DNA of 64,000 nucleotides from Desulfogranum japonicum DSM 18378 (lineage in GTDB: Bacteria > Desulfobacterota > Desulfobulbia > Desulfobulbales > Desulfobulbaceae), in the NCBI RefSeq assembly GCF_000429945.1, contig NZ_AUCV01000019.1, positions 1 to 64,000 of the forward strand, given 5' to 3'. The position numbers and the translations under genes are program-made. This document shows positions 5,684 to 61,236 of the stretch, one piece after another (the first letter of the stretch is position 1; each line of letters opens with the position of its first letter). The notes beneath the pieces are model-generated. The model did not search any database and had not been told where the DNA came from. It was given only the letters and a program-made list of their open reading frames with translations.

Positions 5684-6417
5684 AGACCTCCGGTGACCTC
5701 CAAGACGGCACCATTAATATATGCAGCCTTCTCACTTGCCAGGAACAGGACTGCCTCAGCTACCTCTTCTGGTTTTCCAAAACGTTTAAGAGGCACCATT
5801 TTTTTATATTCCTTAACCTGAACATCGGTGAGGTCATCAATGAGATCAGTGGCAATAAAACCAGGGGAGACACAGTTAACCGTGATTTTCTTTTTAGCAA
5901 CTTCTTTACTCAAGGACTTGGCAAGTCCCACCTGCCCTGCTTTGGAAGCAGCGTAATTTCCCTGGCCCGGAAACCCCAAGGATCCCATGGGGGAGGTGAT
6001 GAAAATTATCCTTCCATATTTCTGCTTCATCATAAGGGGAACAGCGAACTTTGACATATTGAAGCCTCCGCCCAAGTTCACGTCAATAACCTGCTGCCAG
6101 TCTTCCAACTTCATCAAGGCGACCATGGCATCTCGCCGTACGCCTGCATTGTTCACCAGAATATCGATGGAATCATGCGTACTCTCGATCTGTGAAAAAA
6201 ACTCTTCCACAGCGGTATATTCACGGACATCGAGTTGGTGCAGTTGTAATATCCCGCTCAACTGTTCGGCTTCTGCCGTCAACTGTTCAGCGGCCTTGGT
6301 ATTACCTGCATAAATGCCAATTACCTGTGCCCCCCGGGACAGTAATGCCAAGGTCACGGCTTTTCCTATTCCACGGGTGGCACCAGTTACAATAGCCTTC
6401 TTTCCTGTAAACTCCAA
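5680..6417 (-). CDS. FabG-like 3-oxoacyl-ACP reductase
   Basis: A 245-aa classical SDR. The TGATRGIG cofactor motif is at residues 11-18, NNAG near residue 90, a catalytic Ser around 142 and the Tyr155-x3-Lys159 pair in YAASK, followed by a SPGFIATDL segment. It would reduce 3-oxoacyl-ACP to 3-hydroxyacyl-ACP. The only sensible start is a TTG (6415-6417), placed a few bases after a GAGGGG ribosome binding site, so expression may be held below that of its neighbours. It overlaps the FabZ-like gene by 4 bp. Since no oleD is visible, this enzyme is also a candidate for reducing the OleA beta-keto product, but typical OleD is a larger extended SDR, so this is speculative. Confidence 0.8.
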   Translation of the reverse strand: MEFTGKKAIVTGATRGIGKAVTLALLSRGAQVIGIYAGNTKAAEQLTAEAEQLSGILQLHQLDVREYTAVEEFFSQIESTHDSIDILVNNAGVRRDAMVALMKLEDWQQVIDVNLGGGFNMSKFAVPLMMKQKYGRIIFITSPMGSLGFPGQGNYAASKAGQVGLAKSLSKEVAKKKITVNCVSPGFIATDLIDDLTDVQVKEYKKMVPLKRFGKPEEVAEAVLFLASEKAAYINGAVLEVTGGL

Positions 6418-29399: not shown

Positions 29400-31103
29400 A
29401 TGGTACGGATTTCAAGAAAGGCATATGCGGAAATGTTCGGCCCCACCACCGGCGACAGAGTGCGCCTGGCTGATACTGAACTGTGGCTGGAAGTGGAAGA
29501 AGACCGTACCATATACGGCGATGAGGTAAAATTCGGCGGTGGCAAGGTTATCCGAGATGGAATGGGACAAAGCCAGAAATGCGGGGCTCAAGTAGCTGAT
29601 ACTGTCATTACCAATGCACTCATCGTTGACCATTGGGGAATAATCAAAGCTGACATCGGTATCAAAAATGGCCGTATCAGTGGTATAGGCAAAGCAGGCA
29701 ATCCAGACATTCAGCCAGGAGTTGACATTATTATCGGTCCTGGAACTGAAGCCATTGCCGGAGAAGGCTCCATTGTCACTGCTGGTGGAATCGATGCACA
29801 TATCCATTTCATCTGTCCCCAACAGATTGAAGAAGCTCTGACCAGTGGTGTAACCACCATGATTGGAGGGGGAACAGGTCCAGCCACCGGAACAAATGCG
29901 ACAACATGCACGCCAGGGCCATGGAACATTCACCGAATGCTTCAGGCTGCCGATGTGTTTCCCATGAATCTGGGTTTTCTTGGTAAAGGGAATGCCAGCC
30001 TGCCAGAGGCCCTGGAAGAACAGGTTCTTGCAGGAGCCATGGGGCTAAAACTTCATGAAGATTGGGGCACAACCCCTGCCTCCATAGACAACTGCCTCAC
30101 TGTGGCGGATAAGATGGATATTCAGGTGGCAATTCATACTGACACGTTGAATGAATCCGGATTTGTGGAACAGACCATGGCTGCATTCAAGGATAGAACC
30201 ATTCACACCTATCACACAGAGGGTGCAGGTGGAGGCCATGCGCCTGATATCATACGTGCATGTGGTAAAGCCAACGTACTGCCTTCATCGACAAATCCGA
30301 CCAGGCCATACACCATCAATACCATAGACGAGCACCTGGACATGCTCATGGTCTGCCATCACCTTGATCCCAAAATTGCCGAAGACGTGGCTTTTGCTGA
30401 ATCCCGTATCAGAAGGGAAACCATTGCTGCTGAAGACATTCTCCATGATATGGGAGGATTCTCCATGATTGCCTCAGATTCCCAGGCAATGGGAAGAGTC
30501 GGTGAGGTAATTATCCGCACCTGGCAAACCGCTCACAAGATGAAGGTGCAGCGTGGAAGCCTGCCTGAGGATCCGATGGAGAACGATAACTTTCGAATTA
30601 AACGATATATTGCCAAATACACCATTAACCCTGCTATTTCCCATGGAATTGCCCATGAAGTGGGTTCCATCGAGGTAGGGAAACTTGCTGACCTGGTCGT
30701 GTGGAAACCCATGCATTTTGGCGTGAAACCAAGCCTTATTCTGAAAGGCGGTATGATTGCATCCGCACCCATGGGCGATGCCAACGCATCTATTCCTTCT
30801 CCGCAACCCGTGCACTATCGCCCAATGTTCGGCAGTTATGGGCAGGCTGCCAAAGCCACCAGTATGACGTTTCTTTCCAAAGCTGCCCTGGAATCTGGAA
30901 TAGGTTCGTCTCTTGGACTGCAATCGATTTTAGCTGCATGTTCAAAGTGTCGTTCAATCGGTAAAAAGGATATGATCCACAACAGCTACCAGCCGCTTAT
31001 TGAAGTTGATCCTCAGACCTATGAAGTTCGCGCCGATGGCCAGCTTCTGTTATGTGAACCCGCCAAGGTACTCCCCATGGCACAACGCTATTTCCTCTTT
31101 TAA
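29400..31103 (+). CDS. ureC: Urease alpha (catalytic) subunit
   Basis: A 567-aa nickel amidohydrolase. Lys217, the residue carbamylated to bridge the two nickel ions, is in GLKLHEDWG. Nickel ligands are seen in HIHF and in the [15 protein letters not shown] stretch, and the flap His is in MVCHHLD. It hydrolyses urea to ammonia and carbamate. Length and motifs are full, so the enzyme should be active. The upstream ABC importer and sigma-54 promoter indicate use of urea as a nitrogen source rather than for acid resistance. Confidence 0.97.
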
Positions 31104-34777: not shown

Positions 34778-35096
34778 TGTACGTTCCTCCCTTATTTACA
34801 CACCAAAGCCTTTCTGGATCTTAAACTTTCATTTGACCTAGAAATTTAGTCATTTGACCAAAAAATGTCAACAGTATTTTAAAGGCGACAGATCAGACGG
34901 TTGCCTATACTGTAATTTGGTCTTTGCCGCTCTCTTACATCTACCCACTCCTATACGCGAGAACAAGCTGATGTGCACAGCTCAATTCATAAAACCATTC
35001 TCCCCCAGGTATTATTCCAGATTTATGAAAAAAAAATTCGCTAATCCGTCCTAAAGAAAACTGTATCCACAGCATTAAAAAATACAAAACATTAAC

Positions 35097-35120
35097 TTAT
35101 TGTTATTATTGCGACAATAA
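35097..35120. promoter_or_regulatory. TTATTG dyad upstream of the PEP-CTERM promoter
   Basis: TTATTG-CGA-CAATAA (35106-35120) is a perfect 6-bp dyad, and another TTATTGT arm lies just before it (35097-35103), giving two overlapping ways to pair with ACAATAA. It stands 12 bp upstream of the -24 element. This is close for an enhancer site, so a repressor or IHF-like site is possible. Confidence 0.35.
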
Positions 35121-35132
35121 ACTGAAAATCAA

Positions 35133-35148
35133 TGGCACGCTGTTTGCT
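35133..35148 (+). promoter_or_regulatory. Sigma-54 promoter of the PEP-CTERM gene
   Basis: TGGCACG-N4-TTGCT is a full match to the -24/-12 consensus. Transcription should begin near 35160, about 40 nt before the start codon and its AAGGAG site. Sigma-54 control with the PrsK/PrsR two-component system is known for PEP-CTERM genes in several bacteria. Confidence 0.75.
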
Positions 35149-35201
35149 TTAGATAAAAGCACTAAGACGATTATTACTCATTTCAAAAAAGGAGAAGTGA
35201 A

Positions 35202-35945
35202 ATGAAAAAGAAAATATTGACGGCTGTAGCAATCGGAGCAATGGGATTGGGGTTGGCACAAAACGCTTCTGCAGCCAGCTATGCTGACGTGGTATTCATG
35301 GTCGATCAATCGGGCAGTATGGGTGATGAGTTCGGTTGGATCAGCAACAGCATCAGTACCATTGCCTCATCTATCTCTTCAGCAGGCATTACAGCAAACT
35401 ACGGAATCGCTGGTTATGAGTACTATGCTGGCACCGAAAGTTCTTCCAATGTTTTCCAAGATCTTACATCAGATATCAGTCTTGTAATTTCAGAGGCAAA
35501 CGCTGCAGGTTCAAGTTTGTACGGGTATCAGGAAAGAGGCTATCATGCGGCAGAATGGTCCACAAACGGGTTCAACTGGTCAGGCGGTGATTATGCAAAA
35601 GTCCTGATTCTGCTTACCGATGAAGAAGGTGATCAATACAGTGGTATCAGTGAGACAGATCTGGGTTCTCTTATGACGACCAGTGGTATATTGCTCAATG
35701 TAATCACGTATCAATACTATTTTAATCAATGGGATGATGCTGTTTTCTCCACCACTGATGGGTATCACGGATTATTTGATCTTTCTTACCTGCAAAGTAA
35801 CCCCACAGCATTCACAGCAGACTTTACCGCTGCAAAACTGACTGAAATTCAGAACTACAACCCAACAGTTCCCGAACCAACCACCATGCTGTTGTTCGGA
35901 GCTGGCCTGGCTGGACTCGCTGCAGTAAGCAGAAGAAAAAAATAA
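35202..35945 (+). CDS. Secreted VWA-domain protein with PEP-CTERM sorting signal
   Basis: A 247-aa exported protein. The signal peptide ends near NASAASYAD. A von Willebrand A-like domain begins at once with VVFMVDQSGSMGDEFG, whose DQSGS is the MIDAS metal site (DxSxS), and KVLILLTDEEGDQY supplies the later acidic part. The tail is VPEPTTMLLFGAGLAGLAAVSRRKK: a Pro-Glu-Pro motif, a hydrophobic stretch and basic residues, the PEP-CTERM signal processed by exosortase. It should be delivered to the cell surface or extracellular matrix. No exosortase gene is in the window, so EpsH/XrtA must be elsewhere. A terminator follows. Confidence 0.88.
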   Translation: MKKKILTAVAIGAMGLGLAQNASAASYADVVFMVDQSGSMGDEFGWISNSISTIASSISSAGITANYGIAGYEYYAGTESSSNVFQDLTSDISLVISEANAAGSSLYGYQERGYHAAEWSTNGFNWSGGDYAKVLILLTDEEGDQYSGISETDLGSLMTTSGILLNVITYQYYFNQWDDAVFSTTDGYHGLFDLSYLQSNPTAFTADFTAAKLTEIQNYNPTVPEPTTMLLFGAGLAGLAAVSRRKK

Positions 35946-35984: not shown

Positions 35985-36016
35985 AGTGGGCTTGTATGAA
36001 CAAGCCCACTCTTTTA
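35985..36016 (+). terminator. Rho-independent terminator after the PEP-CTERM gene
   Basis: AGTGGGCTTGT (35985-35995) and ACAAGCCCACT (36000-36010) form a perfect 11-bp stem with a 4-nt loop, followed by CTTTTAT. It ends a single-gene transcript. Confidence 0.88.
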
Positions 36017-36053: not shown

Positions 36054-36317
36054 CTATTCATCGCTTACTTCATCGTTTATTTCATCGCTTACAATTACGG
36101 GTTTTAGGTCTTTAAGATTTTTCCGCATAAGCGAAATAGATTTTTCTGGTTCAAACAATTCTAACCTGTAAAAGCATGCCGACGTATTCTTAGGTCCCTG
36201 TTTTTTCCCGAACTTCACGGGCTATGGCATGCCCGAAAGCAAATGCTTTTCACATCCGGGAGAAAAACAAGAAGAAAAAGTGCTAATCGTATTCCCGCAG
36301 CACTGGCAACGCCGAAT
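36054..36317 (-). pseudogene. Decayed small zinc-ribbon ORF with internal TAG
   Basis: In the same frame as the MscS gene upstream, but beyond its TAA stop, there is an open stretch of about 88 codons broken once by TAG (36222-36224). The first part has RRCQCCG and SSCFSPGCEKH, a four- or five-cysteine cluster. The second part continues with coding-like sequence (SACFYRLELFEPEK, LKDLKPVIVSDE). There is no ATG; an ATT at 36317 sits 6 bp after an AGGTG sequence and could be a mutated start. The 3' end carries three copies of a 12-bp repeat (36057-36092) encoding SDE units. I read it as a degraded gene; TAG read-through is a less likely option. Confidence 0.35.
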
Positions 36318-60366: not shown

Positions 60367-61236
60367 TTACTTCCAGGAGTGATCATTGGTAAACAGATAA
60401 TTGCTGACCAGCGTCAACAAGATGGCAAAGCCAATAGCTGTAATGCCTAAAACCACATTATAATAGACAGGTGCTACCAGGGCGATTCGAATCATCAATG
60501 TGGACAGCGCATATCCTGAATTTCGAAAAACGAATTTGGAAGACGGGTTAAAAATCTGGGAGACCAGGACGATTAAAATATCCGTAAGAATCAGCAGTGT
60601 ATAAAAATCATGAAAAAATTCACCATGTTTGGCACCATTGATTGTATCTGCCACAGTCATCAGCCCCATACTGAAAAAAGCGATCAGCAAAAAAAGTGCT
60701 ATGGCTTTTTTAGCAGCCACAAACCCATACAAATCCCTGGACCTGATTCCATCTTCTGCCCGTTTTTGCAATTTATAATAAAGACCAAGTAACCCGAATA
60801 CCACTATGGCACCAAACCCATTGGCAATGATGTGGAACACCTTATCCACATTATCAGCCATTGTAATGGGTTCGGGAAAATAACTCAGCTCCTTGAATGC
60901 ATTCCGAACAAGAATCAGAGATAAAATCTCAAACTGCTTCCCCAGGGACTTTGAAAAAGAACAGGGCAACACAAAAATCAGGCTGATAACCTCTAAAACC
61001 AGAATGATGGAAAAGGCCATCTCAACTGCAGAAAAATGGTTCATGGGAACCAAGGTCTTGAGCCCTGCAGGCAGCCAGTGTTGACGGTTGAATTCTATCA
61101 GGACCAAACTGCAAATAAAAAATACGACCAAAGCGGCAGAGAGTTTTCTGTGCAGCCGTTCATGCTCATAAAAATTGTGTAACGGATCAAAAATATAGGT
61201 GATCCTCTCATAAAAGCTATTCATCTGTATATTCAT
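60367..61236 (-). CDS. Unrecognised multi-pass membrane protein beside copA
   Basis: A 289-aa protein with about six hydrophobic helices. Landmarks include an N-terminal YERITYIFDPLHNFYEHERLHRK segment, the DGIRSRDLYGFVAAKKA loop and a short basic C-terminus. I do not recognise the family. Starts at 61236 and 61224 are both possible; neither has a good ribosome binding site, so translation may depend on the copper ATPase gene, which stops 20 bp upstream. A role in copper handling is suggested only by that spacing. Confidence 0.6.
   Translation of the reverse strand: MNIQMNSFYERITYIFDPLHNFYEHERLHRKLSAALVVFFICSLVLIEFNRQHWLPAGLKTLVPMNHFSAVEMAFSIILVLEVISLIFVLPCSFSKSLGKQFEILSLILVRNAFKELSYFPEPITMADNVDKVFHIIANGFGAIVVFGLLGLYYKLQKRAEDGIRSRDLYGFVAAKKAIALFLLIAFFSMGLMTVADTINGAKHGEFFHDFYTLLILTDILIVLVSQIFNPSSKFVFRNSGYALSTLMIRIALVAPVYYNVVLGITAIGFAILLTLVSNYLFTNDHSWK

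Follow-up and report, generated by a model that had tools for sequence, protein, structure and literature searches.

A predicted palindromic enhancer and a candidate one-component activator for a VWA gene with a sigma-54 promoter and a PEP-CTERM tail in Desulfogranum japonicum

How PEP-CTERM genes outside the PrsR class are switched on is a question left by the description of the PEP-CTERM/EpsH system (Haft et al. 2006, PMC1569441), which sets out PrsK/PrsR and a promoter composed of motif 1 and motif 2 and states that further regulators and motifs are still to be found. The present analysis concerns a VWA gene in the window, a stretch of 64,000 nucleotides from Desulfogranum japonicum DSM 18378 (NZ_AUCV01000019.1, positions 1 to 64,000), the features of which are collected in Table 1. 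With a probability of roughly 0.7, this locus is a single-gene sigma-54 unit for an exosortase-sorted VWA protein, lying in a palindrome regulon under a PAS activator that replaces PrsK/PrsR. Domains, fold, promoter, exosortase, the palindrome shared among PEP-CTERM genes and the association of that palindrome with the activator were observed by computation. Under the proposed mechanism, the VWA gene would belong to an order-level PEP-CTERM regulon with the enhancer TTTCCG-N6-CGGAAA, and a one-component enhancer-binding protein encoded in the same genome (G000:C6:162492-163997; G, C and L numbers are our labels for genomes, contigs and loci, G000 being the genome of the window) would be the likely activator in place of PrsK/PrsR. 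The palindromic operator and the candidate one-component activator for PEP-CTERM genes are proposed here as new; no report of the activator-palindrome pair was found in the open-licence literature.

Table 1. Features of the VWA locus, in coordinates of the window
Feature	Position	Strand	Description
Predicted enhancer (UAS) ATTCCAGATTTATGAAAA	35014..35031		degenerate copy of TTTCCG-N6-CGGAAA
TTATTG copies and dyad	35097..35120		without support as regulon element
Sigma-54 (-24/-12) promoter TGGCACGCTGTTTGCT	35133..35148	+	12/12 consensus positions
Ribosome-binding site AGGAGA	35190..35195	+	from reading sequence
CDS	35202..35945	+	247 aa; VWA domain and PEP-CTERM sorting signal
Pfam VWA domain	35286..35711	+	PF00092, residues 29-170
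PEP-CTERM tail	35865..35936	+	PF07589; begins PEPTTMLLFGAGLAGLAAV, last residues RRK
Terminator-like hairpin GTGGGCTTG/CAAGCCCAC then T-rich run	35986..36015	+	from reading sequence

A Pfam scan of the 247-aa ORF returned both the VWA domain (PF00092, 32.9 bits against a cut-off of 23.8) and the PEP-CTERM tail (PF07589, 32.9 bits against a cut-off of 20.7, residues 222-245), bearing out the sorting signal that an earlier note on this DNA had read at the C terminus. Residues 1 to about 25 form a signal-peptide-like N-terminal segment by eye (MKKKILTAVAIGAMGLGLAQNASAA), and the hairpin followed by a T-rich run downstream of the gene suggests a single-gene transcript. The fold was modeled with AlphaFold2 at a mean pLDDT of 74 with 16 relatives aligned, as compared to a pLDDT of only 31 for a single-sequence prediction. 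The model contains an integrin-I-like fold over about residues 23-223, of the integrin I and collagen VI A domain type (Z about 13, 3.2-3.5 Å, about 160 residues), with a Z score of 13.5 over 162 residues at 3.2 Å for PDB 8ce6. A search of solved structures by sequence, up to an E value of 1, gave as its sole match a weak one to collagen VI (E 0.056). A complete MIDAS comprises DxSxS, a threonine and an aspartate. The fold is common to the model and the integrin I and VWA domains of PDB 8ce6, 3q3g and 6snk, with 12-16% identity in the top rows, and the VWA protein retains DxSxS (D35-x-S37-x-S39) and the later aspartate (D140). In contrast, a glutamine occupies the canonical loop-2 threonine position in the sequence alignment, which leaves the MIDAS incomplete by sequence; relatives carry either threonine (e.g., L229) or phenylalanine there. 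Thus, of the MIDAS-type VWA domain described in the earlier note, the domain itself is upheld by PF00092 and the fold and the completeness of the metal site is not.

An initial scan for relatives with the single protein as query returned none, as did a scan of plasmids, while the relatives search retrieved 32 related VWA loci, 19 of which encode a PEP-CTERM-type tail by eye. These tailed relatives occur in Desulfuromonadales, Thermodesulfobacteriota, Marinobacter, Nitrosomonas and others. Since PEP-CTERM-type tails recur on 19 of 32 related loci across several groups, single-domain VWA cargo is not rare, contrary to the earlier impression that it is uncommon, and a VWA-PEP-CTERM family extends over Marinobacter, Nitrosomonas and Desulfuromonadales. 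A search of the open-licence literature found no report naming such a family. A related VWA domain with 27% identity is also carried by an autotransporter (L060:1480-3537, from G075:C31; beta-domain 197.7 bits), an instance of this domain type on another surface anchor.

The genome has a single exosortase gene (238.1 bits to PF09721, over a cut-off of 25.7), the gene whose presence the earlier note had made decisive for its reading. This exosortase passes the general model TIGR02602 (190.2 against a cut-off of 105.55), falls narrowly under the XrtA model (197.9 against a cut-off of 208) and is adjoined by genes for EpsI (123.6 bits, cut-off 42.8) and for the TPR protein PrsT (TIGR02917, 371.8 bits, cut-off 312.2). 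Eleven PEP-CTERM places were found in the genome, the one in the window scoring best by a slim margin (37.3 versus 37.2 bits). The exosortase system of the genome would sort the secreted, integrin I-like VWA protein to the cell surface or exopolysaccharide, the PEP-CTERM tail presumably being cleaved in the process, and we infer a role for the protein in adhesion or matrix building; this cargo is thus a candidate integrin-like matrix protein. In the same genus, G006 encodes two exosortases (C7:127553 and C27:17724) and has 22 PEP-CTERM places, one of them just before the second exosortase. The genome of the window was also searched for prsK and prsR, as the earlier note had suggested, and neither was found over its curated cut-off, the best matches reaching 432.9 bits against 502.6 for PrsR (TIGR02915) and 120.5 bits against 300 for PrsK (TIGR02916). 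In positions 34802-35201, exact TTTACA or TGTAAA, the end of motif 1, is absent, a comparison made with these exact letters. An activator encoded beside the exosortase was considered as well and rejected: a motif scan of the exosortase stretches of G000, G002 and G006 yielded no ORF with GAFTGA and only one GAFTEG ORF, far along C27 (L054), and one GSYTGA ORF, in the C7 stretch of G006 (L139).

The sigma-54 promoter reported in the earlier note was confirmed as a full consensus match (Table 1). This element starts 69 bp before the ATG of the VWA gene, its score was not matched by any of 300 shuffled versions of the upstream region, and it is the sole place in the 64-kb window with at least 11 matches and intact GG/GC. 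Sigma-54 control of PEP-CTERM genes, likewise anticipated there, is supported across the genus, with a box of at least 10/12 preceding 16 of 41 PEP-CTERM genes as compared to 0.21 expected from shuffles. The adjacent TTATTG dyad fared differently. Its letters are present (TTATTGCGACAATAA, 35106-35120); however, matches with at most one mismatch number 22 in the 5.8-Mb genome versus 32 for a reversed control pattern, and by coordinates across the whole genome none of the other 21 lies near any of the 11 PEP-CTERM places. Upstream of other PEP-CTERM genes, where the earlier note proposed looking for it, the dyad was not found within 300 bp in any of the nine genes examined (the C3 place being left out). 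Inverted repeats with 6-bp arms in the AT-rich stretch amounted to 4 against 1.45 expected, a number reached by 9% of shuffles and hence no significant excess. The dyad was rejected as a regulon element, being neither commoner than the control nor shared by PEP-CTERM genes. Most of what the earlier note observed is upheld; its regulatory reading had the class of promoter correct (sigma-54) but erred on the specifics (the dyad, PrsK/PrsR).

PEP-CTERM genes were collected from the genus at 48 places in six of seven genomes (none in G004), of which 41 genes from five genomes were used. Six places failing the P-x-P test of the script were left out (G000:C3, G001:C37, G005:C15, G003:C366, G001:C10:25089 and G001:C10:20847), although at least one of these, G001:C37, resembles a genuine tail (VPVP); G002:C150 was omitted for want of a start in frame. 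A TTYCG-N6-CGRAA dyad was first seen in the genome of the window and recurs at 9 or 10 of its 10 positions upstream of 9/31 genes from the other genomes of the genus, as compared to the 3.7% (1.2 genes) predicted by shuffling all 41. De novo motif search on both strands of the 41 genes with a palindrome model yielded TTTCCGgaattcCGGAAa at a log-likelihood of 101.5, as compared to 39.1-47.5 for three shuffled sets. The best palindrome site attained P <0.01 in 21 of the 41 genes, the remaining 20 having no site at this threshold, and spacing to the sigma-54 box was 86-133 bp in 11 of 18 scored pairs (-52 to 244 bp in the rest).

Within 400 bp upstream of the VWA gene, the best site is ATTCCAGATTTATGAAAA, located 119 bp before the sigma-54 box and upstream of the stretch 35097-35945 marked in the earlier note. 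Its score ranges from 13.9 to 15.4 bits depending on the matrix and background, with a P value of 0.0047 when the window is left out of training. The site is weaker than the consensus and falls just short of 15 bits, A/T replacing the inner G/C at one symmetric core pair, and may nonetheless be functional. Requiring palindrome and promoter together proved weakly specific: the combined pattern gave 40 hits in seven genomes against 8 for the reversed control, with 8/40 coinciding with known PEP-CTERM genes and many falling within ORFs (overlap was checked for 30 of the 40, of which 10 were unmatched in the script). One occurrence outside ORFs (L129, G000:C11:16127-16252) precedes, by 184 bp, an ORF of 124 aa that resembles a PilZ protein by eye.

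A candidate activator was located 1.8 kb before a PEP-CTERM gene of the same genome. The encoded protein combines PAS, Sigma54_activat and HTH_8 domains without a receiver domain and has orthologues at 77-79% in G002, G003 and G006; matches at E ≤1e-95 were present in 27 of 57 genomes searched, that of the window included. Among 28 activator loci, 11 have a PEP-CTERM gene no more than about 4.5 kb further downstream, each of them passing the Pfam cut-off (G000, G002, G010, G031, G028, G023, G011, G074 [on the other strand], G087, G091 and G076). No downstream PEP-CTERM gene was seen in the other 17, in five of which the contig stops within about 1.6 kb and in several more within 2.5-4 kb. By eye, the next ORF after the activator is one of about 180 aa at 16 of the 28 loci, and all 11 of those scanned are PilZ proteins over the cut-off, the weakest barely passing (22.8 versus 22.5); an ORF of this kind was not seen after the activator in the genome of the window, G002, G003 or G006.

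The palindrome accompanies this activator beyond the genus. With the genus-trained matrix, a site at P ≤0.019 was found in 9/9 activator-linked PEP-CTERM genes from other genera, the best sigma-54 boxes of which match 9 or 10 of 12 positions (P from 0/500 shuffles to 0.10) at enhancer-promoter distances of 103-333 bp, a broader range than the genus shows, with start codons assigned by a heuristic. In the reverse direction, a matrix built from those nine sites alone recovered the palindrome at P ≤0.01 in 18 of the 41 genus genes and picked the same site ATTCCAGATTTATGAAAA in the window (P 0.005). The palindrome also occurs within 450 bp upstream of the conserved N terminus of the activator itself at P ≤0.008 in 11 of the 25 loci scored, every one of them in the family of the window (11/16); in other families it was found in 0/9, with none at P ≤0.03. 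Two of 27 loci (G090 and G018) were left out of this scoring, as the activator could not be placed. Over the 28 activator loci (197 kb), 37 sites of at least 15 bits were counted as compared to a mean of 0.45 when these loci were shuffled 20 times; the 37 represent 32 sites without overlaps, spread over 20 loci, and 10 of the 37 fall inside ORFs of at least 150 aa. Sites of this strength were absent from the 43 loci around other activators in the genome of the window (122 kb), from a further 142 kb of that genome and from 97 kb taken at other places in G002 and G006, and none of at least 13 bits was found in the exosortase locus of the genome of the window. The tests in other genera, upstream of the activator and at 15 bits use one matrix, and some of the 15-bit sites are the very ones found in the other two tests.

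From this pattern we infer that the activator would bind the palindrome. The activator would probably be autoregulated in its own family, the PilZ gene and the PEP-CTERM gene coming next in many relatives. Co-occurrence of the activator with exosortase over the 57 genomes was moderate (15 with both, 12 with activator only, 7 with exosortase only and 23 with neither; Fisher P 0.016 with relatedness ignored), which suggests that further targets of the activator may exist; a strict match of activator (E ≤1e-95) and exosortase in presence and absence was not found.

The same-genus VWA-PEP-CTERM homologue in G003 is preceded by a sigma-54 box of 11/12 and a palindrome, and sits 206 bp after a PrsT-like gene whose 306.0 bits fall short of the cut-off of 312.2. 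Across eight Marinobacter VWA loci, a 9/12 sigma-54 box was present at -59 to -66 in 8/8, a count made without a null model. At L232, L234, L236, L238, L239, L241, L242 and L244 (Marinobacter) and at L233 (Nitrosomonas), the VWA-PEP-CTERM gene has a sigma-54-like box between -59 and -75. Most of these lack TTTCCG-N6-CGGAAA, the best score being 13.2 bits (L244), so the activator there is probably a different one.

Three other explanations of the locus were weighed against the PAS activator acting through the palindrome. The VWA gene could be controlled by a classical PrsK/PrsR pair of the kind proposed in other Proteobacteria, the PrsR of this genome being merely too diverged for the NCBIfam cut-off; the subthreshold PrsR-model score given above favors this account, as does the report (PMC3333781) in which DAP-chip places PrsR of Desulfovibrio vulgaris (DVUA0057) on PEP-CTERM promoters. 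However, that best match (C21) scores higher to AtoC (517.1) and ZraR (479.6), also below their cut-offs, and was rejected as activator on this ground; it lies on a contig other than that of the exosortase, and the best PrsK match is far under its cut-off. Further evidence against such a pair comes from the N. vulgaris RCH1 plasmid, where the activator beside EpsI was taken as PrsR because of the DVUA0055-57 order in a table of PMC1569441. Proteins recovered from the genome of the window (30 of 44 activator loci gave one) reach at best 38% identity to this presumed PrsR. Seven upstream stretches of the plasmid exosortase region (of two PEP-CTERM genes, a TPR gene and neighbors) lack the palindrome, with scores of at most 4.2, and several instead carry TGTCGG/CCGACA-like boxes by eye. 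PrsK/PrsR control is accordingly distinctly unlikely. Similarity in the HTH to the presumed N. vulgaris PrsR was also tried as a guide and singled out none of the activators of the genome (35.0, 34.7 and 34.3 bits).

Less improbable, yet still doubtful, is that the sigma-54 box is real and another of the roughly 44 activators drives the VWA gene, the palindrome match having arisen by chance in an AT-rich upstream region. The window site is indeed among the weaker ones, with a leave-one-out chance of about 1 in 200, and a good site is missing in about half of the PEP-CTERM genes of the genus; in contrast, its spacing to the sigma-54 box fits the main range in the genus, and the VWA homologue in G003 has clear sites. 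An ordinary periplasmic or secreted protein with an incidental PEP-CTERM tail is very improbable. Sorting is predicted from sequence, and the VWA domain of the autotransporter in G075 shows that related domains also occur on another anchor, but the tail is over its cut-off and ranks best in the genome by its small margin, tails of this type are kept, by eye, in 19 of the 32 VWA relatives, and an exosortase is encoded in the same genome. The preferred reading thus remains an exosortase-sorted VWA protein under the PAS activator and its predicted palindromic operator.

As in the system of PMC1569441, the locus shows a single-gene PEP-CTERM unit with a long non-coding region, a sigma-54 box and an upstream activator site, in a genome with exosortase, EpsI and PrsT. 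In contrast to that system, D. japonicum lacks PrsR and PrsK over cut-off, the palindrome TTTCCG-N6-CGGAAA takes the place of a 17-nt motif ending in TTTACA, and the candidate activator is a one-component (PAS) protein, often PilZ-linked. The DVUA0057 (PrsR) regulon of Desulfovibrio vulgaris, for which PMC3333781 gives experimental promoter binding (the regulon also appears in PMC4641369), is alike in that a sigma-54 activator governs PEP-CTERM genes in another sulfate reducer; the regulator differs in being a plasmid-encoded response regulator adjoining exosortase, and the half-site letters differ as well. The pepA gene of Aquincola tertiaricarbonis is, according to the accessible text of PMC9850573, an RpoN-dependent gene that adjoins prsT, has a mapped -24/-12 promoter and plays a role in flocculation. 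It resembles the VWA gene in being a PEP-CTERM gene behind such a promoter, unlike it in that the strain has prsK/prsR, and no VWA domain is mentioned for pepA in that text.

We regard it as slightly better than an even bet that these data delineate a second class of PEP-CTERM regulon that works without PrsK/PrsR, in which a one-component PAS activator, autoregulated through TTTCCG-N6-CGGAAA and with a PilZ neighbor in many genomes, would couple a PAS-sensed internal signal, and perhaps cyclic di-GMP as well, to the sigma-54-dependent expression of exosortase cargo, integrin-like VWA proteins included, in several families of one order. Such an activator would link exosortase cargo with a one-component sensor and a PilZ gene. 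With an operator named, an activator put forward and dozens of sites predicted, the switching of PEP-CTERM genes can be tested directly.

Upstream of the N. vulgaris TPR gene at 5884, a TGTCGG-N5-CCGACA sequence at about 5600 of L144 is a possible PrsR operator. A T-x-T-C-x-G layout is common to this type of operator and the palindrome, which makes a shared origin of the two possible. Further palindrome-like sites of 13.3-16.7 bits occur in the window at 36120-36137, just 3′ of the VWA gene, at 60512-60529, and at 30154 and 53029. Between 29400 and 32844, the window contains ORFs whose translations resemble the urease genes ureC, ureE, ureF and ureG by eye.
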